This document shows positions 17,945 through 58,617 of a stretch of 64,000 nt of DNA, piece by piece. Location of the stretch: positions 1-64,000 of the forward strand of contig JAMPXB010000017.1 of the NCBI GenBank assembly GCA_023701435.1, in the 5' to 3' direction. The position numbers and the translations under genes are program-made. A model generated the notes under the pieces. It was given only the letters and a program-made list of their open reading frames with translations, was not told the origin of the DNA and ran no database searches. Position 1 is the stretch's first letter. Each line of letters opens with the position of its first letter. Source of the stretch: Bacteriovoracaceae bacterium. Lineage in GTDB: Bacteria; Bdellovibrionota; Bacteriovoracia; Bacteriovoracales; Bacteriovoracaceae.

Positions 17945-17978
17945 AAAAAAAGCCCACTGTTTTTAAGCAGTGAGCTTT
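17943..17978 (-). terminator. Terminator downstream of the first HExxH protein gene
   Basis: A 9-bp stem with one C-A mismatch (17951-17959 with 17968-17976) is followed on the minus strand by eight U residues (complement of 17943-17950). It ends the minus-strand unit whose last gene stops at 18002. On the plus strand it could also weakly end the Cys-cluster transcript. Confidence 0.7.
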
Positions 17979-18001: not shown

Positions 18002-19102
18002 CTACTTCTTCAGACCTTTTTCCATCGCCATCATTGAATCTTTCAAAGAGACGACATTGAATTCTCCTTCAGGAGTTGGATCTTTAGGAGTGGTTGAAGG
18101 CTTTTGGTTTTCCAGCGCGGCCAATCGTACGCTCAGCTCGGCATTCTTTCTTTTTAATTTCTGAAGCTCTGTTTCAAACATGTAGGCTCTATCAGGATAT
18201 TTAACTGCCAGCTCTTTGTAGGCGGCAATCAATTCAGAATATTTCTGAATTTGTGTTTTAAGAGCATGCTTCTGGTTCTCTAAACCCACATCCAGCACTC
18301 GGTTGAATGAGTCCGCGGCTCTGGCCGAAAGTACGGTCTTATCCTTAGTTGAACAAGACGTACAATTTTGCAACATATGAACTTCCGACAACCCTCCAAG
18401 AGAATAAGGACCATTGCTCGTAGATTCACAAGCGGCATGAGTCGCATAAGGATGCCCATCTGGACAGATGGCATGAGTAAAGCCCGTATGAGCACTGTTA
18501 CCATCACTATGACGGGCCTCATGGAAGAGCGTTCCCAGGCGGGAAATACTGTTTGCTGGTGAGAGCATATCTTTATTAATGGCAAATTTTTCCAGAAAGA
18601 GGCCGCGACCAACCTGCAAAATACCAGTGCGGGGAGATTTGCTGAAAACGTTCTGATCATCAAACTTGATTCCAAATAACATCTTCTCTTTCTTACCAAT
18701 CAGATAAATGGCGGTGCCGATATTGGACATGACGGTCGTAACTTCATCATTCCCTTCCACAGTACTGAATCCCCCAGGAAGGGGGGTATTGGGAAACTTG
18801 TACGATTCTTGAACCACAATATTGTCATTGCTAAGTTCGTAAGTTTCACCCACGACAAACTTAGCTCGGTTTACAAGCCAGTTGTGCATATTAGGACCAT
18901 CGGTAACAGTCATTCTGCTCATGGAAGCAAAGGCCGGAAGTGGCTTAGTTACTGAAGCTTTATAAAGATACTTAAGATCAACTTTGATTGCATTCACTTG
19001 ATCCTGGGGAACAGATGAATGGAATTGGATGCCTCCAAATTCTTGAGCAGCAAAAGCGGTAGAGATGGTTAAGGCCAGCGACAGGATAGCAATTTTTTTC
19101 AT
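18002..19102 (-). CDS. Secreted HExxH metallopeptidase-like protein (copy A)
   Basis: The product has 366 residues with signal peptide MKKIAILSLALTISTAFA. At residues 194-205 it has HEARHSDGNSAH, an HExxH zinc motif with Gly at the metzincin position and a third His one residue later than in metzincins (HExxHxxGxxxH). Downstream are CPDGH, ACES and NCTSC, giving four or more likely disulfide cysteines. Residues about 277-335 are a charged coiled coil. The tail P-x-D-P-x-P-E-G-x-F...S...LKK is shared with the paralogs at 19743 and 55448. Peptidase activity is inferred; no known family is recognised. AGG-type ribosome site and ATG are clear. It is separated by 104 bp from the partner gene. Confidence 0.75.
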   Translation of the reverse strand: MKKIAILSLALTISTAFAAQEFGGIQFHSSVPQDQVNAIKVDLKYLYKASVTKPLPAFASMSRMTVTDGPNMHNWLVNRAKFVVGETYELSNDNIVVQESYKFPNTPLPGGFSTVEGNDEVTTVMSNIGTAIYLIGKKEKMLFGIKFDDQNVFSKSPRTGILQVGRGLFLEKFAINKDMLSPANSISRLGTLFHEARHSDGNSAHTGFTHAICPDGHPYATHAACESTSNGPYSLGGLSEVHMLQNCTSCSTKDKTVLSARAADSFNRVLDVGLENQKHALKTQIQKYSELIAAYKELAVKYPDRAYMFETELQKLKRKNAELSVRLAALENQKPSTTPKDPTPEGEFNVVSLKDSMMAMEKGLKK

Positions 19103-19206
19103 GGATTCCCCTGGATAATAATCGAGGGCAAACTACCACAAAAAATCCAAGTTTAAATATGCAATTTTTTCACGCTACAAATTTAAGTTATTGAAATTTA
19201 AAAGCC

Positions 19207-19743
19207 TTAAGGAAGTCTCATGGCCAAAGCTTTAATCTCTTCGGGAACATCGGCATCAGCAATAGGTAAAAAGATTTTCCATTCTACGATTTGAGATAAG
19301 GTTTTTTTCCAGCAAACGGCCCTGATTGCCGGTAATAGTTCGCTATTTTCAGCACAGCTTTTGAAGAATTTCAGGGTTCCTTCTCTCCGGGCCGGATCCT
19401 TTTGAGCAGCTTCATGGATTTCACCAATCAATAGACCCCCATCTTTTACCGCTACCGGAGAATGATGAACCTCTTCCTCACTCAATTTTTTTATATCATC
19501 CACTGTAGGTAAGGCTTCCATTGCTTCTTCATACTCTTTTGCCGATTCACCTGACACGACCTGAGCTTCATTAGCAGCTTCAGGAGACTTCACTTCTACT
19601 TCCGTTACCGCTTTTTTGACTGGCTTCGTTTCTGGTGTCTCTTCCACGATATCGGGAGAGATAACCTGATTTTTTTGAAAAATCGCCACCCCGATGATCA
19701 GGATGGCGACGATTAGAAATAGGAGCTTAAGATTTTTATTCAT
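19207..19743 (-). CDS. Membrane-anchored partner protein 1 of the HExxH module
   Basis: The protein has 178 residues with one N-terminal membrane segment (residues 7-23), an acidic linker rich in Glu/Val/Ala (about 30-80), and a compact C-terminal domain. That domain is shared with the protein at 54912: LPTVDD, EEEVHHSP, AAQKDPARR and two cysteines spaced as C-x13-C in SCAENSELLPAIRAVC. The start codon overlaps the stop of the copy-B HExxH gene by one base (TAATG), so the two are probably translationally coupled. Anchor, periplasm-facing domain and coupling suggest a chaperone, inhibitor or docking factor for the HExxH proteins. That role is inference. Confidence 0.65.
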   Translation of the reverse strand: MNKNLKLLFLIVAILIIGVAIFQKNQVISPDIVEETPETKPVKKAVTEVEVKSPEAANEAQVVSGESAKEYEEAMEALPTVDDIKKLSEEEVHHSPVAVKDGGLLIGEIHEAAQKDPARREGTLKFFKSCAENSELLPAIRAVCWKKTLSQIVEWKIFLPIADADVPEEIKALAMRLP

Positions 19744-20855
19744 TATTTTTTCAGAGATTTTTCAATTAGTTTCACTGATTTTTTAATTGAGATCTCATCA
19801 TACTTGCCTTCCGGAGCTGGATCAAGCGGTAAGGCGACAGTCGGTTGTTTTTCCAAATCTGCAAGCATCAATTTTAGCTCTTCTATGTTCTGCTCAATTT
19901 TCTTTTTCTCAGCTTCGTAGGCTTTTTTCTTCTCAGGGGTGCTTAGATTAATCAAGGTATCATATACAGCGAGAACATCCTCGTAGGCCTTGATTTGTTT
20001 TTCTAACTCGGCTTTCTGAGCGCTTTGCTTGGGATCAACGATACGACTAAAGGCATCGGCTATACCTGCAGAAATAGCTGATTTTTCCTTCTCAGAACAG
20101 CTGCTGCAGTTGAGGAGAAGTTGTTTCTCAGCAACGGCACCCAATGAGTAAGAGCCATTGCTGGATTTTTCACAGGCTGCATGTCCTTCATAAGCATGAC
20201 CAGTCGGACATTCATCATGAACAAAACCAGTATGTTCACTGTTACCATCACTATGGCGAGCTTCATGAAATAAAGTTCCCAAACGTGAAACAGTATTAGC
20301 AGGAGCTAGGAGATCTCCTTTATTGATCCGGAATCTTTCCAGGAAGAGTCCCTTTCCTACTTGCAAAATACCTGCACGGGTCGATTTAGCATAAACTTTA
20401 TCTCCATCGAGCTTTAATCCCAATAACACATCTTGTTTCTTCCCCAGAAGATACAAGGCACTTCCAATATTGGACATGACTGTTACAACTCCTTCATCCT
20501 CATCTTCATTTACCGCCTTAAAAGCATCAGGCAGCGGAGTTTTAGGAAAGCGATGAAAAATCCAATAGGCAATATTCTCTTCAGTTAATTGAAAGCTTTC
20601 ACCAATGATGTGCTTCGAGCGATTGATCAACCAATTATGCATATGAGCACCGTCAACGGCCGGTAGACCGGTCATCGCCTGAAATTCAGCATCGATGGTC
20701 GAGACAGGAGTTTGATACAAATAGTTGATATCGGCTTTTAAGGCATTCACCTGGTCCTGTGGAACTGATGAATGGAAGTTGATACCGCCGTATTCTTCTC
20801 CTGCCATTGCAGAAGATAAAGCGAAGGCCAGACCTAGAGTGGTGAATAATTTCAT
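19743..20855 (-). CDS. Secreted HExxH metallopeptidase-like protein (copy B)
   Basis: The start is set at 20855, where CCAGGAGC precedes the ATG and the product begins with signal peptide MKLFTTLGLAFALSSAMA. A longer open frame to 21014 would run into the upstream acyl-reductase gene. The product has 370 residues. It carries HEARHSDGNSEH, CPTGH, ACEKSSNG and NCSSC as in copy A, and long blocks are nearly identical (FHSSVPQDQVNA, MSNIG, GILQVG-x-GLFLE, RLGTLFHEARH). The coiled coil near residues 280-345 and the P-E-G-K tail are kept. The gene order copy B, partner 1, copy A suggests tandem duplication around the partner. Confidence 0.75.
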   Translation of the reverse strand: MKLFTTLGLAFALSSAMAGEEYGGINFHSSVPQDQVNALKADINYLYQTPVSTIDAEFQAMTGLPAVDGAHMHNWLINRSKHIIGESFQLTEENIAYWIFHRFPKTPLPDAFKAVNEDEDEGVVTVMSNIGSALYLLGKKQDVLLGLKLDGDKVYAKSTRAGILQVGKGLFLERFRINKGDLLAPANTVSRLGTLFHEARHSDGNSEHTGFVHDECPTGHAYEGHAACEKSSNGSYSLGAVAEKQLLLNCSSCSEKEKSAISAGIADAFSRIVDPKQSAQKAELEKQIKAYEDVLAVYDTLINLSTPEKKKAYEAEKKKIEQNIEELKLMLADLEKQPTVALPLDPAPEGKYDEISIKKSVKLIEKSLKK

Positions 20856-20949: not shown

Positions 20950-23349
20950 CTAGCGGCGCTGATCGATAATAAGGCTAATCTTTCCAGTCCGAACATTACG
21001 GGGAACTTCCCCATGACCCTGTTCTTGGAGATGAATATCCTTCTTAAAGTCTTGATATTTAAGGGTATCCTTCACATCCCGAGAGCGTTCATAGAGTTCC
21101 AATAAAAAGGCTTCCTGATCAAAAGGGGTCAAAGGCTTCTCATAGGAAAAGGTGAGCTTCTCTCTTACCACATTGGCCTCCCGAACCTCGGAAATTTTGA
21201 TCTGGAAAGTAAGAATCTCCCGGGTGCTCATTACTGCTTCCACATCTTCCAATAGGAGGCGACAAGACCAGATTTGAATCACATTATCCACTCTTCCCAA
21301 CAGTTTAAAACGCCGATCAGAGCTGCCACACTGACAATCGGAAATCCACTCAATGCGGTCACCCGTCCGGTAGTTTCTAATGGGCATGGTTTCCCGTGCA
21401 AGGCTTGTAACGATTCCTTCTTCTTCCAGAATTTTAAGTTCTACCAGATCACTAAAAACATGATGTTCACCTGTTCCACAATGCTCGCACTGATAACCAA
21501 TTACTCCTGCATCTACCGAAGCATAACCGGCAGAAGCGAACACCTTTGTTTCCCAATTTTTTTCCAGATAATCTCGGCGGATTTCTGACAGAGCTTCCCC
21601 GGCGTAAAAAACCATCGGTATCTTAAGTTTCTCACCTACCGATTCTATATACTCAGCATTCATCACCAGCATGGATGGAATTCCCATGACAGCATCAGGC
21701 TTGAATTTTTTTAAATATAAAAGGATGTTCTCACTGGGGCAGATGCCTCCAATCGGCAGTTGAATCACGCCGATTTTTTCCAGCGCCTTATCGACACATA
21801 AAAAAGAAGACCATAGATTGCCTGCTACAAACAAATTGGCCACGGTCATTCCTGCACGCAAACCATGGCGCTTAAAATTTTCCGCCAACATATCACTCAT
21901 GAAATCAAATTCTTCATAGCTAAAATGCAGGTATTTGGGTTCCCCTGTGGTGCCGCCGGATGAAAAGATGTAACCTCTAGGGTGTGGATGACTTTCAAAG
22001 TGGGATTTAATGGTAACGGAGTTATTCACGGTGTGTATGTCTTCACCATAGTCCCTGATTCTTCTTTCATCACCGATGAAATTGACCAGCTCTCGTAATA
22101 CAAAACGGCCGTCGTGAGGCGCGCCTTCCATACCCCAGGTAATGGTTCCCAAAGGAGCAAAACGCTTAAGCCCAGTCAAGGCCAGAGTTTCCAGATAGAC
22201 TTCACGTTCAGAATCATCAATCAGGTAAGAACAAGACTGAAGATAGTATGAAAATGGTTCCAACAATGAGAACAATTCTTCCAGGTTTCTATAGCGTTTG
22301 ATGATCAGTGAGCGGTGAAGCGGAGAAGGTTTAAGTAATTTATTATCTTCTAAATGGAGAAGATAGTCTTCGCCGACAGTAATCTTCCCATCTTCCATGA
22401 GTTCAGAATAATAGCCCCGGTATTTTTCCTTAAGAATCTCGGTTGCTTCGTCTTCAGAGATCGCTCCCCGAGAAGGCGCTTGATTGAAAGCTTCCTCCAA
22501 TTCTCTTAATAACTCGGCTTCATCGATTCCTTCCTCAAGGTATAAATTCTGGGGAGAAGCGCAGGCCGACTGGTCCCAGGGAACAATATCAGCGACAATA
22601 CTTTCAGCGACTGATCGAAATTTTTTATTTTCCAGTCCTCGTTTGGTAATTAATTGCAGGGAGATTTTTGGTCCAAAATCCAAAAATTTTACGTGAAGAG
22701 GAAGATCCTTTTTATAAGACCCCATCATTTCTTCACCGCCCCAAGCGATAATGGTATTCACTTTGGATTTGATAAATCTCTCAACAGATTCATCCCCGCC
22801 TTTCCAGTGAAGAATGGCAAATTTATCGGAGAGAATATTCTTTTGGTCAAAATCCTTTAACTTCTGGGCAAAGAACATCGGAAAGAATTTATTTTGGCTG
22901 CTGACTTTAACAATTGAAAGATTCTTGGTCAGAAAGCCCATAACAAGGGAATCAATACAGCTCAAGAAAACATTTCCAGCAGTCACATGAAGGACAATTC
23001 CCTGAGGGATGGCGCGAGTCTTATTGCTGGCATTGGGAAGTTTGGTAAATTGATCCAACATTTCCGCCCTGGTAAATTCGACGCGAACTCTCTTCTCAAG
23101 GCTCTCTTTCTTTAACAGACCTGGCAACAACGCCAGGGTTTTAATGGTTTCTTCCTCAGAAAATCCCGACTCCTTAATAAGTTCAGGTAAGGCATCATTA
23201 AAAGAGATTTTTCCAAAAGCATCGAGGAGGTCAGTAATCTCCCCTAGTTTTGTTCCGGCGAATTTTCTTTTCTTTTCAGACAAGGCTTCCCACTCTGCCT
23301 TATCCTGCCAGTTAAAATCCTGCTGAATATCTTTACCAAACCAATACAT
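20950..23349 (-). CDS. LuxC-type acyl reductase fused to a PaaK-like acyl ligase
   Basis: The protein has 799 residues. Residues about 1-430 are a LuxC-like fatty acyl reductase: T-A-G-N-V-F near 124, a VPWDQSACASPQ segment with the probable acyl-accepting Cys263, and GTITWGMEGAPHDGR near 401. Residues about 440-799 are an adenylate-forming domain of the phenylacetate-CoA ligase type: SSGGTTGEPKY at 463-473, YASVDAG, NYRTGDR, and a CXXC...CXC zinc-like set (CEHC, CQC). The fusion would activate an acid and reduce it to an aldehyde using NAD(P)H. It starts 3 nt after luxE stops. No luxA, luxB or luxD lies nearby, so the aldehyde serves something other than light. Confidence 0.8.
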   Translation of the reverse strand: MYWFGKDIQQDFNWQDKAEWEALSEKKRKFAGTKLGEITDLLDAFGKISFNDALPELIKESGFSEEETIKTLALLPGLLKKESLEKRVRVEFTRAEMLDQFTKLPNASNKTRAIPQGIVLHVTAGNVFLSCIDSLVMGFLTKNLSIVKVSSQNKFFPMFFAQKLKDFDQKNILSDKFAILHWKGGDESVERFIKSKVNTIIAWGGEEMMGSYKKDLPLHVKFLDFGPKISLQLITKRGLENKKFRSVAESIVADIVPWDQSACASPQNLYLEEGIDEAELLRELEEAFNQAPSRGAISEDEATEILKEKYRGYYSELMEDGKITVGEDYLLHLEDNKLLKPSPLHRSLIIKRYRNLEELFSLLEPFSYYLQSCSYLIDDSEREVYLETLALTGLKRFAPLGTITWGMEGAPHDGRFVLRELVNFIGDERRIRDYGEDIHTVNNSVTIKSHFESHPHPRGYIFSSGGTTGEPKYLHFSYEEFDFMSDMLAENFKRHGLRAGMTVANLFVAGNLWSSFLCVDKALEKIGVIQLPIGGICPSENILLYLKKFKPDAVMGIPSMLVMNAEYIESVGEKLKIPMVFYAGEALSEIRRDYLEKNWETKVFASAGYASVDAGVIGYQCEHCGTGEHHVFSDLVELKILEEEGIVTSLARETMPIRNYRTGDRIEWISDCQCGSSDRRFKLLGRVDNVIQIWSCRLLLEDVEAVMSTREILTFQIKISEVREANVVREKLTFSYEKPLTPFDQEAFLLELYERSRDVKDTLKYQDFKKDIHLQEQGHGEVPRNVRTGKISLIIDQRR

Positions 23350-23352
23350 TTG

Positions 23353-24459
23353 TTATTTCTCCAATAACTCAAGTGCCTTTAAAGCACAGCCTTTATGTTT
23401 GGAAACCCCGGCGCGACCTTCAAGGATCAAGATATCTGTACCGAGTCCGCAATCACATGTACCTACTCTACCATAATCGGTAGTAAGCAAACTGGGTGCA
23501 GGATAACTAAAATTATAAGAACAAAGAAAGTGCAACAGCCCCCGCTCGCCTTTTGCCCTGAGTGATAAATCAAATGGTGAGCGCACAAAAACCCGGGAGT
23601 AATTTGGGATATGTAGATTTCCCTTCTCACAGTCTACATAGGGAATACCGTGTTCCACCATGCCGAAAAGATCCCGTTGATTTGTCTCTGGAATCCCCAG
23701 ATGATTTTTAATGAATTTCCGAAACTCTTGCTTGGGAATTTCCTTGTCCGCCTTGCCTTTCCACCCGCCGCCGGTTTGCAACCAGGAGTCTTCTCCTAAA
23801 TCGAGTTTCAGATGATGTTTTTCAATAACTTCATAGATGAGAGCTGGAAACCCCAGAATTCGAGTGGGAACCCCGGAGGCAGCAAAACGCTTTAAGGTCG
23901 CCACCACTCCCTCTTCATTGAGAACGAATTCATTGGTAACTGAATTAAATTGAATGGCGTAATAAACTTCTTTTTTACCGGTAAAATTAGTCAGCAGTTC
24001 ATCAGTAAAGGCCGTTCCTAAATCATTGGCCACTGCCGGATCATAAGTAAAACACAAATAATTATATTCCCGCTCACTGGCCATCCCCAATGACTGATGA
24101 ATTTTAAGTGCCAACTGTTTCACATTATTAAGACTTTGCTGATCCAGAAACTGCCGGGACTTCTGGCCTCCGGTTCCCGAACTAGTCAGCGTCAGCACCA
24201 GGTTCTCCCGCGGTACTGAACACAGTTCATGTTCTTTAAATAAATGCACCATCGTACCAGGTACCGTGGCCAGATCATCTTCTGTCTTGAGTGAGTCCGG
24301 ATGAAAACCTAACTTATCCCAGAGCTTTCGGGAAAATTCATGGTTTTTATAATGATGAAGGGCATTTTCCTTAAAACTATTCAGGAAAAGTTTTTTAGCA
24401 CTTTCTGAGAAGTCAAAAGGATCAGATAACAGTAACGACTCTGTTGACGGCGACTTCAT
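23353..24459 (-). CDS. LuxE-type acyl-protein synthetase
   Basis: This 368-residue adenylate-forming enzyme of the LuxE family has the nucleotide loop LTSSGTGGQKS near residue 93, LQTGGGWKG, DLFGMVEHG, LLTTDYGRVGTCDCG and a C-terminal GRAGVSKHKGCAL. Cys358 in that tail is at the position where LuxE carries its acyl thioester. In luminous bacteria LuxE activates a fatty acid and passes it to LuxC for reduction to the aldehyde. The start codon overlaps the GNAT stop (ATGA) and the gene is followed after 3 nt by the LuxC fusion. The three genes are one operon. Confidence 0.85.
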   Translation of the reverse strand: MKSPSTESLLLSDPFDFSESAKKLFLNSFKENALHHYKNHEFSRKLWDKLGFHPDSLKTEDDLATVPGTMVHLFKEHELCSVPRENLVLTLTSSGTGGQKSRQFLDQQSLNNVKQLALKIHQSLGMASEREYNYLCFTYDPAVANDLGTAFTDELLTNFTGKKEVYYAIQFNSVTNEFVLNEEGVVATLKRFAASGVPTRILGFPALIYEVIEKHHLKLDLGEDSWLQTGGGWKGKADKEIPKQEFRKFIKNHLGIPETNQRDLFGMVEHGIPYVDCEKGNLHIPNYSRVFVRSPFDLSLRAKGERGLLHFLCSYNFSYPAPSLLTTDYGRVGTCDCGLGTDILILEGRAGVSKHKGCALKALELLEK

Positions 24460-25625
24460 ATTTTTAACAATTTAGGGTTAAGAGACATGCGCTTCCAGGC
24501 CTTAAAATACTCCTCAAGATAAACCTGATTCATGCCTTTTAGTTTTACGTTCTGAAAATCAAAAATCTCGAAGGAACGGCTAAAGACAGCAAAGTCGTAG
24601 CGCTTATCCCCGATTAATTGAAAGGCGGGAAAGAATCCACAAGGAATGAATTTCGCCCGCAAAATACTTTCCAGAATTTTAGGGCGATCTGATCTGACGA
24701 TGACTTCAATATAACGGGCCCCGGCATCTCTTAAGAGCTTATTGGTTTCAAGAAATAACTGTGAGAAGTCCTGATTACCCGGCATCTTCCCTCCCACAAT
24801 CACACAGTAACCATCAACCGCCGAGAGGTGACAGAACACTTCGATCGATTGATCAGGAGAAAGGATCATCAGATTAGGCTGATGAAAGGGAAAGAACTCA
24901 AACTCTAATCTCTTCTCATTTCGCAATAAATTATAACGGTAATTAACAAACTTCGATGATTTCACCACTTCCAGGTCACCAGCGGGAAACAATTCCTTGG
25001 ACGGCTTGTCCGGGATGATTGAATCAAGCTCGCTTAAACCGACCTCGTTTTGAACCACTCCATAAAGAGATGCCAGTTCATGATGAATTTTATAATTGGT
25101 ATGTCTTCTTTCTAGTGCCGATGGATAAATGATTCCGGTGAGACAATGAGTTTCATAATCATTCGTTCGATGGGCATTAGGAAAAATTCCCAGTTTTTTA
25201 AAACCTAATTTTTCAGTTAAAGTTTGGGCCGCTTCGTTAACGGTACGGGTGGTGGAATAAATAACATCAACTCCAAGAGTATTCTCTCTCAGGTAATTGA
25301 TCCCATAGGAGAGCAGCTCTTCCATTACACCCTGACCACGGCATTCGTTTCTCACGACCGCCCCGAAGGCCTTAGCGATGAGATTTTCTTTATCATAGGC
25401 CGCCAGAACTGAGGCGATAACATCGCCTTTGTCGTTCTTGGAAATAAACCAAAAGCCCGCCTCCGACTTAATAAACCCCTGAATCAGAATAAAATCTTTC
25501 ATCAACGGGTCCGGATAGGTCCCTTGGTAAACATCAAAATATAGCTGAGAAATCTGGAAAATATCTTCCTCAGTGGCTAATTGTACTTTCATGGGCTTGA
25601 GACTATCATTATGCGGATTTAGCAC
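24456..25625 (-). CDS. GNAT acetyl/acyltransferase with a C-terminal extension
   Basis: The first gene of the acyl-reductase operon encodes 389 residues. It starts at a GTG (25625), with an alternative ATG at 25592. Residues about 12-165 are a GNAT domain: VRNECRGQGVMEELL is the acetyl-CoA pyrophosphate loop and TRTVNEAAQTLTEKLGF the usual C-terminal element. Residues 190-389 are a second domain, possibly a degenerate GNAT fold (YIEVIVRSDRPKILESIL, FIPCGFFPAF). Tight overlap with luxE links its acceptor or donor to the acyl chemistry: it may modify an amine or use the activated acyl group. That link is inference. Confidence 0.75.
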   Translation of the reverse strand: MLNPHNDSLKPMKVQLATEEDIFQISQLYFDVYQGTYPDPLMKDFILIQGFIKSEAGFWFISKNDKGDVIASVLAAYDKENLIAKAFGAVVRNECRGQGVMEELLSYGINYLRENTLGVDVIYSTTRTVNEAAQTLTEKLGFKKLGIFPNAHRTNDYETHCLTGIIYPSALERRHTNYKIHHELASLYGVVQNEVGLSELDSIIPDKPSKELFPAGDLEVVKSSKFVNYRYNLLRNEKRLEFEFFPFHQPNLMILSPDQSIEVFCHLSAVDGYCVIVGGKMPGNQDFSQLFLETNKLLRDAGARYIEVIVRSDRPKILESILRAKFIPCGFFPAFQLIGDKRYDFAVFSRSFEIFDFQNVKLKGMNQVYLEEYFKAWKRMSLNPKLLKI

Positions 25626-48868: not shown

Positions 48869-49885
48869 TTATTCTGCATCTTTTACTAACCTAAATCCGA
48901 TGTGCGATGTACCGGTATCAATCGCTCCGCCTCTTCGGGCACTTGGTCTGAAACTTTCGCAGTACGAAGGCGTACAAAGAAACGATCCGCCTTTGATGAC
49001 TTTCTTTGGTGTATAGGGATCGCTCGGATCGAAGCTCGTTGCTGGTCCGTGGGGATTGTGACAGAATTTCTTTTCTTCTTCACTAGCTTCATAGGTATCG
49101 CGGTACCAATCACTAGTCCACTGCCAGACGTTTCCTGCCATATCAAAAAGACCGAAACCATTGGGCGGAAAACTCCCTACCGGAGATGATCGTTTCCAGC
49201 CATCCTCAGGTTGCTCTTTATAAGGAAATTCACCCTGAAATGTATTGGCCATGAACTTACCATTAGGACGAGGATCATCTCCCCAGTTATAGCGTTTTCC
49301 GGAAAGCCCTCCACGGGCGGCGTACTCCCACTCCGCCTCCGTGGGAAGACGTTTTCCAACCCAGCGAGCATATGCGAGAGCATCATTATAAGAAATGTGA
49401 ACTACAGGATGAAGATCCATGCCTTCGATTGAACTTCCGGGACCACTCGGATGTTTCCAACTAGCACCCTTCACCCACTTCCACCACGCTGACAAATCTT
49501 CAATCGGAACCGGTTCATCAGGAGGTGAGAAGACCAGCGAGCCTGGTCCCAGTTCTGTGGCTGGCGGCAACTCAGTGCCAGGAGGAAGCTGCTGTTTCAG
49601 TTGTTCCACATCAATTGGTTTTTCGGCAGTCGTTTTGTAACCAGTCATGTCGACAAATTTCCGAAATTCAGCATTGGTTACTGGGTATGGATCAATCCAG
49701 AAGCCTGAAAGATGGACCTTGCGAGAAGGCCTTTCATTCATCATGCTGTTTAAATCATCCGTTCCCATGATGAACTCTCCATCGGAGATCCACTTCATGT
49801 TTGTTTCCCTTGAGCCGACTCCTAGGAAAAGAAAAATTCCGGTCAGGATCACTGCCAGGAAAATGTAAGTCTTACTCTTCCACAT
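48869..49885 (-). CDS. Formylglycine-generating enzyme (sulfatase-activating)
   Basis: The product has 338 residues and an N-terminal membrane anchor or signal (residues 6-24). The FGE-sulfatase fold is clear: WISDGEFIMGTDD, NERPSRKVHLSGFWIDPYPV, GKRLPTEAEWEYAARGG, GLFDMAGNVWQWTSDW. The catalytic copper-binding pair Cys304/Cys309 occurs in GGSFLCTPSYC, so it should be active. It oxidises the sulfatase active-site Cys to formylglycine in the periplasm. It overlaps the sulfatase gene by 14 bp, matching enzyme and substrate in one operon. Confidence 0.93.
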   Translation of the reverse strand: MWKSKTYIFLAVILTGIFLFLGVGSRETNMKWISDGEFIMGTDDLNSMMNERPSRKVHLSGFWIDPYPVTNAEFRKFVDMTGYKTTAEKPIDVEQLKQQLPPGTELPPATELGPGSLVFSPPDEPVPIEDLSAWWKWVKGASWKHPSGPGSSIEGMDLHPVVHISYNDALAYARWVGKRLPTEAEWEYAARGGLSGKRYNWGDDPRPNGKFMANTFQGEFPYKEQPEDGWKRSSPVGSFPPNGFGLFDMAGNVWQWTSDWYRDTYEASEEEKKFCHNPHGPATSFDPSDPYTPKKVIKGGSFLCTPSYCESFRPSARRGGAIDTGTSHIGFRLVKDAE

Positions 49886-52205
49886 ATTTCACAACAAAAG
49901 AATTGATAACGTTATTATATTCAAAAGGTGCCCGAGCATAATAATCTTCAATCACTGGCGAATAGCTGTCTCTTCCTACATCAAATGAATCACTATAGGT
50001 AAAGACACTTGAGCCGGTTTGAGGAACACCTATCTTGCCAGTTTCCTTGTCGTTGATTTTTACTGTGACCAGCATGCTGGAGCCTGTCCCTCCCTGTAAT
50101 TTAGAGGAAACCTGTAAACGAACCTTGCCCTCTGAAAGCTTACCGACTTTTAAGCGCGACCTGTCTCGGAAAAAGTTATACTCGTAGAATAGAATGCCTT
50201 TATCCATCCAGAGTGCGATTCCACCAGAATAACCTCCTGTTGCATAGATAACACCAGACGCATCTTTACCAACCTCTAGGTCAATATCTATCACATTACT
50301 CCTTGATCCTATCCATGGTCCGGCAATCTCTGCCAAACGCTGAACACCTTGGTTATACTCATAGATCTTGGCCGGATTATGTGGCCGCTCTTCCGGGTGG
50401 AGTAAATAATTCCAGATTGCACCTCCAACAGGAAAGACTTTGTTTTGCTCGGCAACCTTATAAAAATCTTTCTTCATTTGGCCAACACGTTTGCTCTGCG
50501 AAGCTGCGAGATCATCAGACTGAGTAAAGTCGTTACGGAGATCGTAAATTTCCCAGGTATCATTCTCCGGATTCCACTTGAAAGGATCTGCTAGCATACC
50601 TTTCCAGATATCTTTTAAACCCACCGTTGAGGCCATCCATCCGTTCTGATAATAGGCTTGACTTCCGACCATCTCAAAATATTGCTGCTTCTTTTTTTCC
50701 GGTTCCTTGGCAGAGGCAAACGTATAGCGCATGCTGATGCCGTCCATAGGAGCCTGCTTGACTCCGTCCACTGTGGCCGGTGCTTTAATCTTCAACAAGT
50801 CATAGATCGTTGGGGCAATGTCATTGACGTGGTGGAACTGGGTCCTTGGTGTTTTGTCAGGTTTAATTCCTTTCGGCCATGAGATAGCGAGCGGAGTTCT
50901 TGTTCCACCGAAGTGGGCCACATTACCTTTGGCCCCTTTGTAAGGAGTACTTCCGGCCCAGGCCCAACCGTAGTGATAGGCACTATCAATCTTTTCTGTT
51001 CCGATGGCATCAAGTCCACCGAGTTTCTCAAGATATTTCATTTGCTGTTCAGCGGTCATTTTAGCTCCAACATGGCTTGCGTAGTCAGTGATAGTTCCGG
51101 ATTGGCCTTCAGCGCTTCCACCATTGTCACCCCAGATGTAGATGATGAGGGTGTTATCCCTTATTCCTAAACGTTCCAACTCATCCAAAATTCTTCCACC
51201 TTGGTTATCGGTATGCTCAGTCATTCCCGCATAAACTTCCATCAGGCGCGTCTGAAAAGGTTTTTGATTTTCAGGAATTTCATCCCATCCAACCAGGCCT
51301 TCCGGTCGGGATGTTAGCTTGGCTTCTGAGGGAATCCATCCAAGTTCTTTTTGTTTGGCATAGATTGTTTCCCGCATTTTATCCCAACCACCATCAAACT
51401 TTCCTTTATACTTGTCGGCCCAGTTTTTGAAAATGTGATGGGGACTATGAGGTGCCCCCGGTACCCAATAAACCAGAAATGGTTTCTTTTGAGCATGAGA
51501 GTTCCTGATCCAGCTGATGGCCCGATTAGTGATATCTTCGGTGAGATGATAATCTTTTTTTTGAGGCTTATCTTTAAACGAAGTATTTTCAACCAGTGAT
51601 GGATTAAACTGAGACGTCGCACCGGCGAGAAATCCATAGAAGTAATCAAAACCAACATGCTTGCCGGTAGGCCAGCGGTCAAAAGGTCCCACTTGCGTCG
51701 TTTCGGTTAAAGGGGTGTTGTGCCACTTACCAAATGCACCAGTGGCATAACCATATTCACCCAAAACTCTTGCGATGGATGATGTTGAGCGCGGCCACAT
51801 CCCAGTATAACCATCCCAGCCATTAGCAAAATCCATGACAATTCCACTACTCACCCGATGATGATTCCTTCCAGTTAAAAGAGCTGCTCTGGTAGGTGAA
51901 CACATCGCTGTATTATGAAACCTGTTATAGGTGATCCCATCCTTGGCAACACGACTGAGCGTTGGAGTATGCACGGGACCGCCGAAGGTATCTGGAAGTG
52001 CAGGAGCGGAATCATCGAGCATCATGATCACGATATTAGGCACATCGTTTTCAAGTTTCTTCACTGGCACCAAAGGCCTGTGCTTGGAAGCTTGAATCGT
52101 TTTCTTGGCGATGGAGGCGTTTTTAGCATCCGGTAATGGGAGTGATGACTGAGCAAGTGCTATGTGACTGCAAAAAAGTGTAGAAATAAAAATACAACTA
52201 CGCAT
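49872..52205 (-). CDS. Periplasmic arylsulfatase
   Basis: This 777-residue type I sulfatase has signal peptide MRSCIFISTLFCSHIALA. NIVIMMLDDSAPALPDTFGG is the metal-binding start (Asp-Asp). The modification motif C-x-P-x-R is CSPTR at 102-106 with TGR following, so Cys102 is the formylglycine site. GKWHNTPL and APHSPH are further active-site segments, and IWGDNGG carries the C-terminal Asp-Asn. A C-terminal beta domain follows (about 600-777). It hydrolyses sulfate esters and is activated by the FGE encoded next to it. The porin gene 145 bp upstream is probably co-transcribed. Confidence 0.92.
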   Translation of the reverse strand: MRSCIFISTLFCSHIALAQSSLPLPDAKNASIAKKTIQASKHRPLVPVKKLENDVPNIVIMMLDDSAPALPDTFGGPVHTPTLSRVAKDGITYNRFHNTAMCSPTRAALLTGRNHHRVSSGIVMDFANGWDGYTGMWPRSTSSIARVLGEYGYATGAFGKWHNTPLTETTQVGPFDRWPTGKHVGFDYFYGFLAGATSQFNPSLVENTSFKDKPQKKDYHLTEDITNRAISWIRNSHAQKKPFLVYWVPGAPHSPHHIFKNWADKYKGKFDGGWDKMRETIYAKQKELGWIPSEAKLTSRPEGLVGWDEIPENQKPFQTRLMEVYAGMTEHTDNQGGRILDELERLGIRDNTLIIYIWGDNGGSAEGQSGTITDYASHVGAKMTAEQQMKYLEKLGGLDAIGTEKIDSAYHYGWAWAGSTPYKGAKGNVAHFGGTRTPLAISWPKGIKPDKTPRTQFHHVNDIAPTIYDLLKIKAPATVDGVKQAPMDGISMRYTFASAKEPEKKKQQYFEMVGSQAYYQNGWMASTVGLKDIWKGMLADPFKWNPENDTWEIYDLRNDFTQSDDLAASQSKRVGQMKKDFYKVAEQNKVFPVGGAIWNYLLHPEERPHNPAKIYEYNQGVQRLAEIAGPWIGSRSNVIDIDLEVGKDASGVIYATGGYSGGIALWMDKGILFYEYNFFRDRSRLKVGKLSEGKVRLQVSSKLQGGTGSSMLVTVKINDKETGKIGVPQTGSSVFTYSDSFDVGRDSYSPVIEDYYARAPFEYNNVINSFVVKYVEE

Positions 52206-55447: not shown

Positions 55448-56548
55448 TTATTTTCTTAAAGATCGATCCATCAATTGCGAAGACTCCTCTACCGAGACTT
55501 CTTTAAAGGTCCCTTCTGGCTTAGGATCTAATGTTTGAGCTGTCATCGGTGTTCTTAATTCTTTTAGTTGCTCTTCACAATCTTTTACTTTAGCTCTCAG
55601 CCGTTCGAGCTCTTTGATAGACATCTCTGCACCAGGGGGGTTATTTGCAAGGTAACCGACATAAAATTCAATCACTCTTTGATAAGTCGCGATCTCTGCT
55701 AAGATTTGCTCTTCTGTTTTAAGATGAGAGCGAAGAACCACTCGGGAAAAAGCATCCGCGACGCTTGCCTCTAATTTCGTCTTATCCTCATTACTACAAG
55801 TAAGGCAATTCTCTAGAAGATTCTTTGTGGCCACTGCTTCCAAACTATAAGCGCCATTACTTGAGGCCTCACAAGCATCATAACCAGATAAAGCATGACC
55901 TGGAGGACAAGCATTGTGAATAAAACCTGTATGTTCAGAATGACCATCTCCATGACGAGCTTCATGGAAAATTGTCCCCAGTCTTTTTATCTTATTCGCT
56001 TCAGAACTTGGTTCTGTGTTTATAAGTAGCCTTTCCAGGAAAAGCCCCTCACCCACCTGCAGAATTCCCACTCTTGGAGATGGAGCAAAAACCGTTTTAC
56101 CATTTAGTTTAATGCCAGTTAATTTCTTTTCTTGTTTTCCCATCACATAAAGTGATGCTCCCACATTGGACATAATCATAATACGAGCATACTTATTGGT
56201 ACTATTAACGAGCGATGGCGGAAGTGGTGTCGAAGGAAAAATATGACCTGTTTTTTTAACGATATATCGACCACGCATTTGATAAGACTCGCCAATAATG
56301 TACTTCACTCGATTATAGAGCCAGTTGTACATATTAGGGCCATCAACTTTGGAAAGTCCGGTCATGGACTGAAACTCAGAATCAACACTCTTTACCGGAT
56401 TACTATAAAGATAGCTAAAATCTTCTTTGAGTGTTCGCACCTGAATTGCAGGTATTGAAGAATCAAGTTCGATGCCACCAAAATTCTCTCCGGCAAGGGC
56501 CGAAAGTGATGTTGTTAGTGCCAAGGTTAAAGCAAGCGTTCTTTTCAT
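55448..56548 (-). CDS. Secreted HExxH metallopeptidase-like protein (copy C)
   Basis: The start at 56548 (AGGGAAGAC upstream) gives signal peptide MKRTLALTLALTTSLSALA and 366 residues. It carries HEARHGDGHSEH, CPPGH, ACEASSNG and NCLTC, the coiled coil near 285-335 and the shared tail P-E-G-T-F...S-L-R-K. It is more divergent than copies A and B, so the duplication that produced it is older. It is followed by partner 2. All three copies keep the zinc-type His/Glu residues and the Cys set, which argues for function. Confidence 0.75.
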   Translation of the reverse strand: MKRTLALTLALTTSLSALAGENFGGIELDSSIPAIQVRTLKEDFSYLYSNPVKSVDSEFQSMTGLSKVDGPNMYNWLYNRVKYIIGESYQMRGRYIVKKTGHIFPSTPLPPSLVNSTNKYARIMIMSNVGASLYVMGKQEKKLTGIKLNGKTVFAPSPRVGILQVGEGLFLERLLINTEPSSEANKIKRLGTIFHEARHGDGHSEHTGFIHNACPPGHALSGYDACEASSNGAYSLEAVATKNLLENCLTCSNEDKTKLEASVADAFSRVVLRSHLKTEEQILAEIATYQRVIEFYVGYLANNPPGAEMSIKELERLRAKVKDCEEQLKELRTPMTAQTLDPKPEGTFKEVSVEESSQLMDRSLRK

Positions 56549-56646: not shown

Positions 56647-57213
56647 TTAAAAATCCCCCACCGCACCTTCCAGAGAAGTTTTGATTTGATTGGAAGCGAC
56701 AATCGTATCCATGACATCAAACAGAGCATCGATGTTAAGTGTGAGCGATCCGTCAGCACTCACAACATAAACGCCATCAAACTTAATGGTCATATTATCA
56801 TCTGTGCTGAAAGTTCCAGCATTATTCATAAAAGTCACACTTGGTTTTGTCAGGCCATCGCAGTTTTTCTCAAGGTCAAACTCCACCCGTTCGTATTGCC
56901 CATGAGGAACGCTTACTGTAATGAGATTTGTTCCTCCAGGAGTAATGTCTATTTCTCCCAGGGTAAGTTCAAAGTTTTGTCCTCCGGGTAATGTTGAGTC
57001 AGGCTTAAAGCGCATGCGCTTAAAGCAAAATTTCACATTACTTACCGCTGCGTATGCCGATGGAATGAAACTTTCAGAGAGATGCTTTATGAATGCGAAA
57101 GGTTGTTGGTCTTCCATCCGCAAGGCCACATTCGATTGCTTGACCGGATTGCCAGTAGTCGTGGGCCCGCACCCTACAAGAAAAGCCATCATAAGAATAA
57201 GTACAAGTTTCAT
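56647..57213 (-). CDS. Predicted lipoprotein, DUF4382-like (second of a pair)
   Basis: The protein has 188 residues and lipobox L-V-G-C (Cys15 lipidated). The mature part begins with a hydrophobic spacer and then VSNVKFCFKRMRFK, GGTNLITVSVPHGQYERVEFDLEKNCDG, and strands of a beta-sandwich. It is paralogous to the lipoprotein at 58042. The start overlaps the regulator stop (ATGA). The family resembles DUF4382-type surface lipoproteins; the ligand is unknown. Confidence 0.65.
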   Translation of the reverse strand: MKLVLILMMAFLVGCGPTTTGNPVKQSNVALRMEDQQPFAFIKHLSESFIPSAYAAVSNVKFCFKRMRFKPDSTLPGGQNFELTLGEIDITPGGTNLITVSVPHGQYERVEFDLEKNCDGLTKPSVTFMNNAGTFSTDDNMTIKFDGVYVVSADGSLTLNIDALFDVMDTIVASNQIKTSLEGAVGDF

Positions 57214-58028
57214 AGTTTCTCCTTCTTCTCAGTCAGAGGAAAACCTAGCAGACTGATATGGAAGATTTCAGTTTCATTTTTAATATTCGAATTTAATCCG
57301 GCTATCCTTTCGAGAGTCTCATCGAGGATGCGCTTTAGTTCCGGCAATTTGTCTTTTGGCATGGCCATGGTATGTCCGAGGATGTGCCGGTCTTCCGATG
57401 ACACTTTATAAATTGATTCTACGGCCTTCTCTAAAATTTGTTGATGGAAATCAGAAAGGGAAAGCTTGTATATATCCCCTTTGCAATCCAGCAGACGAAA
57501 TTCACCAAATTTGGCCAGAAGTCGGTGCTTATTCAAAAACTCAAGTGATTTCCTAATCTCTTTTAGTGAAACTGTGAAAAGGAGGCGCTCCTGAATCCAC
57601 TCCGCATTTTCCTGAAAATCGGCCAATTGACTCATTTCCCTGATCGCAACGTTCCACCACTTTTTAAGATACTTATAGGTCAGGACTTCCCGTGAAGAAT
57701 GTTCCTGAAAGGCTTTAAACTTCGCAAGACTTTCCAGTGCTTCTTTTTTATTTTCAGGACCATCGAATTCAAGAACGATAAGATGCTTAAGCCACGAGAC
57801 CTCTTGTTCATTCCATCCCAAGGCACTGGCCCAAAGTCCAATGTTCTCTTCTGTCAGTTGACGTTTTCCTTGTCCGATTAGAGTAAGAAGGGTTGGTGAA
57901 ACATTGAGCTTTTTGGCGAGACTTCGAAGTGAGACCTTATTTTGCTTATACCAGCTAAAAAGGTCGGCCAGATAAACCCGTGAGTCCTGGTACTTAAAGA
58001 TGTCTGGTTTATCTGACCGAGTAATCAT
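57210..58028 (-). CDS. TIGR02147-family regulator-like protein
   Basis: The protein has 272 residues. Residues about 10-65 are an XRE-like HTH (FSWYKQNKVSLRSLAKKLNVS, LTLIGQGKRQLTEEN). The remainder is the helical TIGR02147/DUF4423 domain (WNVAIREM, FLNKHRLL, HILGHTMAMPKD). Such proteins occur in several copies in Bdellovibrio and Fibrobacter and often lie near predicted lipoproteins. Here it is embedded between two paralogous lipoproteins in one transcript, which suggests it senses or controls them. Confidence 0.8.
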   Translation of the reverse strand: MITRSDKPDIFKYQDSRVYLADLFSWYKQNKVSLRSLAKKLNVSPTLLTLIGQGKRQLTEENIGLWASALGWNEQEVSWLKHLIVLEFDGPENKKEALESLAKFKAFQEHSSREVLTYKYLKKWWNVAIREMSQLADFQENAEWIQERLLFTVSLKEIRKSLEFLNKHRLLAKFGEFRLLDCKGDIYKLSLSDFHQQILEKAVESIYKVSSEDRHILGHTMAMPKDKLPELKRILDETLERIAGLNSNIKNETEIFHISLLGFPLTEKKEKL

Positions 58029-58041
58029 TTATTCTTCCGTT

Positions 58042-58617
58042 TTATAGTGAGCCACTTATGCTTTCAAGAGCGTCTTTCAAGTCACCGACTCCATTGTAGG
58101 CATTTGCTCCATTAAGGATATCCTGCACTCCAAGGACCAGCGATTCTGAACCATCCACGATGAAAGTTCCTTCAAACTTAATCGTAATTCGGGAGTTCGT
58201 GTTGTAAACACCAAAGTCATTTGTAAGACTTGCACTACTGCCGTTACAGTCAGATTCAAGATCAAATTCAATTCGATAATAGGTTCCTGCAGGAACGGAA
58301 ACATTTCCCAGGGAAGTTCCCGCATCTGAAAGTGTCACAAGTCCTAGCATGAGATCAATATTGTCATTAGAAGTTTCTGCTGTTGAAACATCATTAATAT
58401 CTTTTTTAAAGCGAAGACGTTTAAAGCAAACAGTAAGATCGGAGACCGCTGCGTGCGCTTTAGGAATAATAAGATCGGAAAGCGAGGCGGTAGTATAGCC
58501 TCCGAGCTGCATTGAAACCGGATAAGACTGTATGGATGAAACCGGTGAAGAATCATCATTTGACTGACAGGCGATTAAATTGACTAACATCAGAGAAGTA
58601 AGCAGCAAATGTTTCAT
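58042..58617 (-). CDS. Predicted lipoprotein, DUF4382-like (first of a pair)
   Basis: The product has 191 residues with a lipobox L-I-A-C after MKHLLLTSLMLVN (Cys17). The mature protein shares VSDLTVCFKRLRFKK, GNVSVPAGTYYRIEFDLESDCNG and the later ITIKFEGTFIVDGSESL with the protein at 56647. The two are clear paralogs with a common beta fold and a conserved Cys pair. It is the first gene of the lipoprotein-regulator-lipoprotein operon, 13 nt before the regulator. Confidence 0.65.
   Translation of the reverse strand: MKHLLLTSLMLVNLIACQSNDDSSPVSSIQSYPVSMQLGGYTTASLSDLIIPKAHAAVSDLTVCFKRLRFKKDINDVSTAETSNDNIDLMLGLVTLSDAGTSLGNVSVPAGTYYRIEFDLESDCNGSSASLTNDFGVYNTNSRITIKFEGTFIVDGSESLVLGVQDILNGANAYNGVGDLKDALESISGSL

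Follow-up and report, generated by a model that had tools for sequence, protein, structure and literature searches.

The window analysed here, a 64,000-nucleotide stretch of a Bacteriovoracaceae genome, encodes three paralogous proteins (copies A, B and C, Table 1) which we interpret, with a probability of roughly 0.55, as members of an unnamed family of exported zincin-like metallohydrolases that are most probably peptidases and whose long form would be controlled by a membrane-anchored partner protein. The signs of export, an HExxH motif that lies where a helix ends, and the invariance of one Glu and three His residues make a new zincin-like, and probably peptidase, family the most likely explanation, even though the fact that the best, albeit weak, structural match is an oxygenase and not a peptidase has to be counted against it. 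Predatory Bdellovibrionota possess many exported enzymes, but only for a few of these is a target or a self-protection partner known. What our analysis adds is a near-obligate partner that tracks the long-form enzyme across genomes, so that both activity and self-protection become directly testable.

Three exported paralogues

All three copies are full-length open reading frames that begin with a signal-peptide-like N-terminus, as read off the sequence, and they are therefore likely to be exported, whether to the periplasm or out of the cell; to this extent the sequence-only reading, which had described three secreted paralogues, was correct. Copies B and C are 43-51% identical to copy A, searches with copy B returned the other two at E values of 8.5e-122 and 2.6e-103, and no further copy was found in the source genome. 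A tree of 24 close relatives places A with L032, B with L033 and L034, and C with L038, and because each groups with different relatives the three are old paralogues. Copy B, its partner gene and copy A form a single minus-strand run that ends with a terminator-like hairpin.

Table 1. Positions in the window of the enzyme copies, their main features and the partner genes
Feature	Position	Strand	Remark
Copy A, exported HExRH protein, 366 aa	18002..19102	minus	lacks its own partner gene; comes after that of B
HEARH of copy A, residues 194-198	18509..18523	minus	
Terminator-like hairpin and T run after copy A	17949..17978	minus	pattern scan alone
Partner of copy B, 178 aa	19207..19743	minus	N-terminal membrane anchor; domain in which two Cys are invariant
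Copy B, exported HExRH protein, 370 aa	19743..20855	minus	AF2 model, pLDDT 94.5
HEARH of copy B, residues 197-201	20253..20267	minus	predicted ligands H197 and H201; predicted general base E198
H213 of copy B, invariant third His (H-x2-C)	20217..20219	minus	His in 102/102
Two-helix coiled-coil hairpin of copy B, residues 275-336	19848..20033	minus	present in only part of the family
C-terminal tail of copy B from DPAPEG, residues 345-370	19746..19823	minus	
Copy C, exported HExRH protein, 366 aa	55448..56548	minus	
HEARH of copy C, residues 195-199	55952..55966	minus	
Partner of copy C, 177 aa	54912..55445	minus	directly downstream of copy C

LuxC-like, LuxE-like and GNAT-type genes (20950-25625) lie immediately upstream of copy B in the same orientation. 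They were considered as operon partners of B and rejected, as this arrangement is common to close relatives only, and apart from the partner no neighbour was found to be shared across the family beyond close relatives. Elsewhere in the window, a sulfatase gene adjoins that of a sulfatase-modifying (FGE) enzyme, together a complete-looking maturation pair (48869-52205), and upstream of copy C a DUF4423 regulator is flanked by two similar small lipoprotein-like genes, one of them weakly related to DUF4382 (56647-58617).

A phylum-wide family with a long and a short form

The enzyme family is phylum-wide, unannotated and outside the named zincin-like families. Its members gave no match above noise in Pfam, NCBIfam, PHROGs or PADLOC, and profile searches of PDB chains returned none that matches over the enzyme core, in keeping with the earlier statement that the combination of motifs could not be matched to a named peptidase family. 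Our search of the published literature found nothing on this family. Phage, plasmid and viral collections contained no relative of the enzyme, so its gene is not obviously of phage or plasmid origin. Among 369 genomes of the phylum, 188 have a match; the named hits belong mostly to Bacteriovoracaceae, Bdellovibrionales and Oligoflexia, and relatives are rare in the group of the L056 genome (2/60 genomes).

The family comes in two forms, a long one, to which copies A, B and C belong, and a short one of about 220-280 aa which has no equivalent of residues 92-172 and no tail; hhalign links the two at 99.5%. The coiled coil and conserved tail proposed to complete the design are present in A, B and C, with the tail reading DPxPEG, but neither is universal: beyond R271 the length of relatives varies by as much as about 90 residues, and a D-x2-PE-like tail is seen in 62/102 members.

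Active-site residues

Conservation was counted over 102 non-redundant family members, using copy B numbering. H197, E198, H201 and H213 are conserved in all 102 and R200 in 101, while C216 and C228 are each kept in 99, C250 and C253 each in 98, and G234 and Y236, which form a G-x-Y motif, each in 100. The family core reads HE-x-RH ... H-x2-C ... C ... G-x-Y ... C-x2-C. The string HEARH-x-D-G-x-S-x-H, on which the sequence-only reading had built its case, can be read in all three copies, but its Gly204, although usual, is not invariant family-wide, and a divergent branch reads HEARHSDC and has a longer loop and a second Cys ahead of the third His. More importantly, the supposed third His, one residue later than in metzincins (H208), is a His in just 19/102 members, whereas H213, five residues further on, is a His in every one, so that H213 is most likely the third metal ligand and the claim of a shifted His had to be given up. 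Similarly, CP-x-GH, ACE and NC-x2-CS, which had been called invariant, do occur in A, B and C (the last as NC-x2-C[ST]), but across the family only the four Cys are kept (98-99/102).

The gap between HExRH and the third His is 11 residues in 74 members and 9 in 19, the short forms having 9, and overall it ranges from 5 to 48 residues, with three members at 29-48. The gap of 5 belongs to L030, a distant relative and the sole member with an exact HExxHxxGxxH. Because L030 keeps the metzincin spacing, the extra residues in front of the third His look like a loop insertion, and insertions seem to occur readily in this loop, within a layout that otherwise resembles that of metzincins. No Met is found among the positions conserved after HExRH in the 102 members, and where the Met of a Met-turn would be expected by sequence there is the conserved Gly234, two residues ahead of Tyr236. 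Likewise, no Glu downstream of HExRH is conserved in at least 85% of the 102 members.

Structural models and fold searches

The AF2 model of copy B, built from a 57-sequence alignment in which many loci came from searches of genomes, is confident, with a pTM of 0.90 (pLDDT in Table 1), and places HExRH at the end of helix 185-200 and the two helices of the coiled-coil hairpin at 275-304 and 307-336. Foldseek searches with this full model yielded only coiled-coil and other helical noise, none of it significant. The model of a short form, which is free of the coil and was built from an alignment of window sequences and related loci only, has a pLDDT of 87.6 and a pTM of 0.84, and with it nothing was obtained below an E of 0.1. 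Its weak PDB matches include many HExxH or zincin-like folds, namely 8s5f, 4l7a, LTA4H, M48 3c37, M1, ZMPSTE24 and the YbeY-like 1oz9; the best of them is the oxygenase 8s5f (E 0.12, probability 0.96, TM 0.47 over 205 columns), and 22ob SjiH-Ni is also among the best. Neither the fold searches nor the profile searches linked the family significantly to a peptidase, and the clan-level profile match that had been sought did not materialise. As to the proposal of a new peptidase family, an unnamed exported zincin-like family is still the most likely assignment, but the shifted-His motif argued for it was wrong.

A partner protein tracks the long form

The start codon of the partner gene of copy B overlaps the stop codon of the enzyme gene (TAATG). 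Partner proteins have an N-terminal hydrophobic anchor, two invariant Cys and near-invariant His, Pro, Gly and Arg residues, and for 31 of them no Pfam or PDB relative was found, nor any match to ankyrin or another family. The profile used to find them was rebuilt from a curated 31-sequence alignment, as an iterated HMM had drifted into unrelated coiled-coil proteins. The partner lies downstream of the enzyme, with its start overlapping or abutting the enzyme stop, in 53 of 82 inspected open reading frames, a figure that understates adjacency because the long-form criterion was crude and counted some short forms as long; it adjoins none of 13 short-form enzymes.

At the level of genomes, 88 of 91 with a long form carry a partner, compared to 12 of the 278 others (369 genomes; Fisher p 2e-67, which is too small a value as shared ancestry among genomes is ignored). 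Three of these 12 have a divergent enzyme adjoining the partner, and among the three long-form genomes in which no partner was seen, in G357 the contig runs out inside what could plausibly be the start of a partner and G038 has a short copy only (269 aa, with a stop inside the matched stretch). In several genera the partner lies at a great distance from the enzyme or on a different contig, and yet it is present. This persistence in spite of the lack of linkage argues for a joint function, and is strong evidence that the partner works together with the long-form enzyme. A single partner gene can also accompany two tandem enzymes, as in the B-partner-A run of the window and in L035, L037, L192 and L194.

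Other arrangements were seen as well. L179, L180, L181, L182 and L183 encode partner-like proteins of about 140-190 aa that stand alone, without an adjoining enzyme. The L030 enzyme (L030:1063-2958), the most divergent of the family, is followed 4 bases downstream by a small membrane-anchored protein which the partner profile misses. In L017, L018, L021, L044, L048, L084, L086 and L087 the partner is not adjacent and a coiled-coil protein of about 190 aa, conserved and exported, is often found downstream; several of these genomes carry the partner elsewhere.

Discussion

If these proteins are zincin-like enzymes, as we infer, a metal ion, most likely zinc, would be held by H197, H201 and H213 (copy B), E198 would act as the general base, and Y236 of the G-x-Y motif may stabilise the transition state. 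C216, C228, C250 and C253 might brace the lower part of the site, either as disulfides or as a Cys4 metal site. The enzymes would probably act as peptidases and may have a role in predation. The partner, anchored in the inner membrane, would serve to protect the producer or to control the enzyme by restraining the long form on the side of the producing cell, and may be an inhibitor rather than an activator, an anchor or a protein that is cleaved. A more far-reaching version is proposed only tentatively. In it, a zinc peptidase family not described before would have a metzincin-like site that lacks the Met, a loop ahead of the third His that can expand, and a Cys4 brace, and would be coupled to an unrelated, dedicated membrane-anchored inhibitor; the two proteins would form an enzyme and self-protection system that Bdellovibrionota use on other bacteria. 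For modelling and annotation, the corrected signature is HExRH, usually 9-11 residues, then H-x2-C ... C ... G-x-Y ... C-x2-C.

The presence of HExxH by itself does not prove a peptidase, as oxygenases carrying this motif on a zincin-reminiscent fold exist (PMC12636437). Because 8s5f and 22ob SjiH-Ni are the best weak matches of the short form, the family could consist of non-peptidase HExxH metalloenzymes, for instance iron-dependent oxygenases with a fold like that of the alpha-ketoglutarate HExxH beta-hydroxylases. We consider this improbable, however, given that the 8s5f fold match is not significant, that no family member is matched in NCBIfam, that the profile of these hydroxylases (TIGR04267) matches a locus on another contig of the genome and not the window, and that a profile-profile comparison with it gave a probability of 2%, covering the HExxH helix only. 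In addition, the enzymes are exported, away from the usual supply of alpha-ketoglutarate. It is also unlikely that these are exported proteins without catalytic activity in which the His, Glu and Cys residues merely form a structural metal site. An HExxH accompanied by invariant Cys could be structural, and in archaemetzincins with a similar set of residues no activity was detected (PMC3427221), but E198, which is not a ligand in zincin geometry, would then be expected to drift, and instead it is invariant, with G-x-Y in 100/102.

An alternative to which we assign a minor, though real, share concerns the partner rather than the enzyme. The metalloenzyme would be genuine and the partner its activator, membrane anchor, chaperone or substrate instead of its inhibitor. 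The membrane anchor of the partner and its exclusive linkage to the long form would suit such functions, and a Listeria metzincin likely cleaves the TIMP-like lipoprotein with which it is paired (PMC8235301). Nothing speaks directly against this possibility; the occurrence of one partner with two tandem enzymes is explained equally well by a shared inhibitor. We favour restraint of the long form by its partner, for which Bd3459 and Bd3460 in Bdellovibrio, discussed below, offer a precedent.

Among known enzymes, several share features with this family. Its beginning resembles that of metzincins of clan MA(M), such as M10 and M12, with the HExxHxxG start, a Tyr downstream and, in L030, the full HExxHxxGxxH, but here a loop is inserted ahead of the third His and the Met of the Met-turn is missing. 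Counting against the zincin-like reading as a whole, classical zincins do not usually have Arg as the fourth residue of HExxH or Asp after the motif. We rejected membership in MA(M), since L030 alone has the HExxHxxGxx(H/D) spacing and no Met-turn is seen; hhalign against M10-like proteins of the same phylum gave probabilities of 4-7%. Membership in the gluzincins, MA(E), was dismissed as well, because no invariant downstream Glu is available as third ligand.

Archaemetzincins (M54, PF07998) likewise have HExxH, a Gly, a third His and then four conserved Cys ending in C-x2-C. Their third His, however, comes 5 residues after HExxH instead of 11 (or 9), it is followed by Cys as HC instead of H-x2-C, the Met-turn has its Met where this family has Gly, the Cys are spaced differently, and archaemetzincins are cytosolic whereas this family is exported; the PF07998 profile matched neither the family nor the window, and M54 membership was rejected. 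The four Cys of archaemetzincins bind a structural zinc (PMC3427221).

The TIGR04267 enzymes resemble our family in having HExxH on a zincin-reminiscent fold, but they have other residues after the motif and are peptide-maturation enzymes; membership in this group was rejected too, the profile being unmatched, although 8s5f ranks first for the short form, at a non-significant E. A TIGR04267 peptide-modification homologue is encoded in the same genome outside the window (G000, contig C39:4251-4607), and such homologues occur in 68/192 sampled genomes of the phylum.

With regard to the pairing of enzyme and partner, Mtz/Tim of Listeria also combines a secreted metalloprotease with a membrane-attached partner (PMC8235301), but this metzincin and TIMP-like pair is phage-derived and from a Gram-positive organism. 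Bd3459/Bd3460 of Bdellovibrio similarly consists of an exported enzyme gene followed by a gene for a periplasmic protein, even though the components differ, with a serine DD-endopeptidase and an ankyrin protector there and an HExRH enzyme and a family-less partner here. Bd3460 blocks the exported endopeptidase Bd3459 and also covers a second enzyme that is encoded elsewhere, so that one protector can serve more than one enzyme (PMC4686830).
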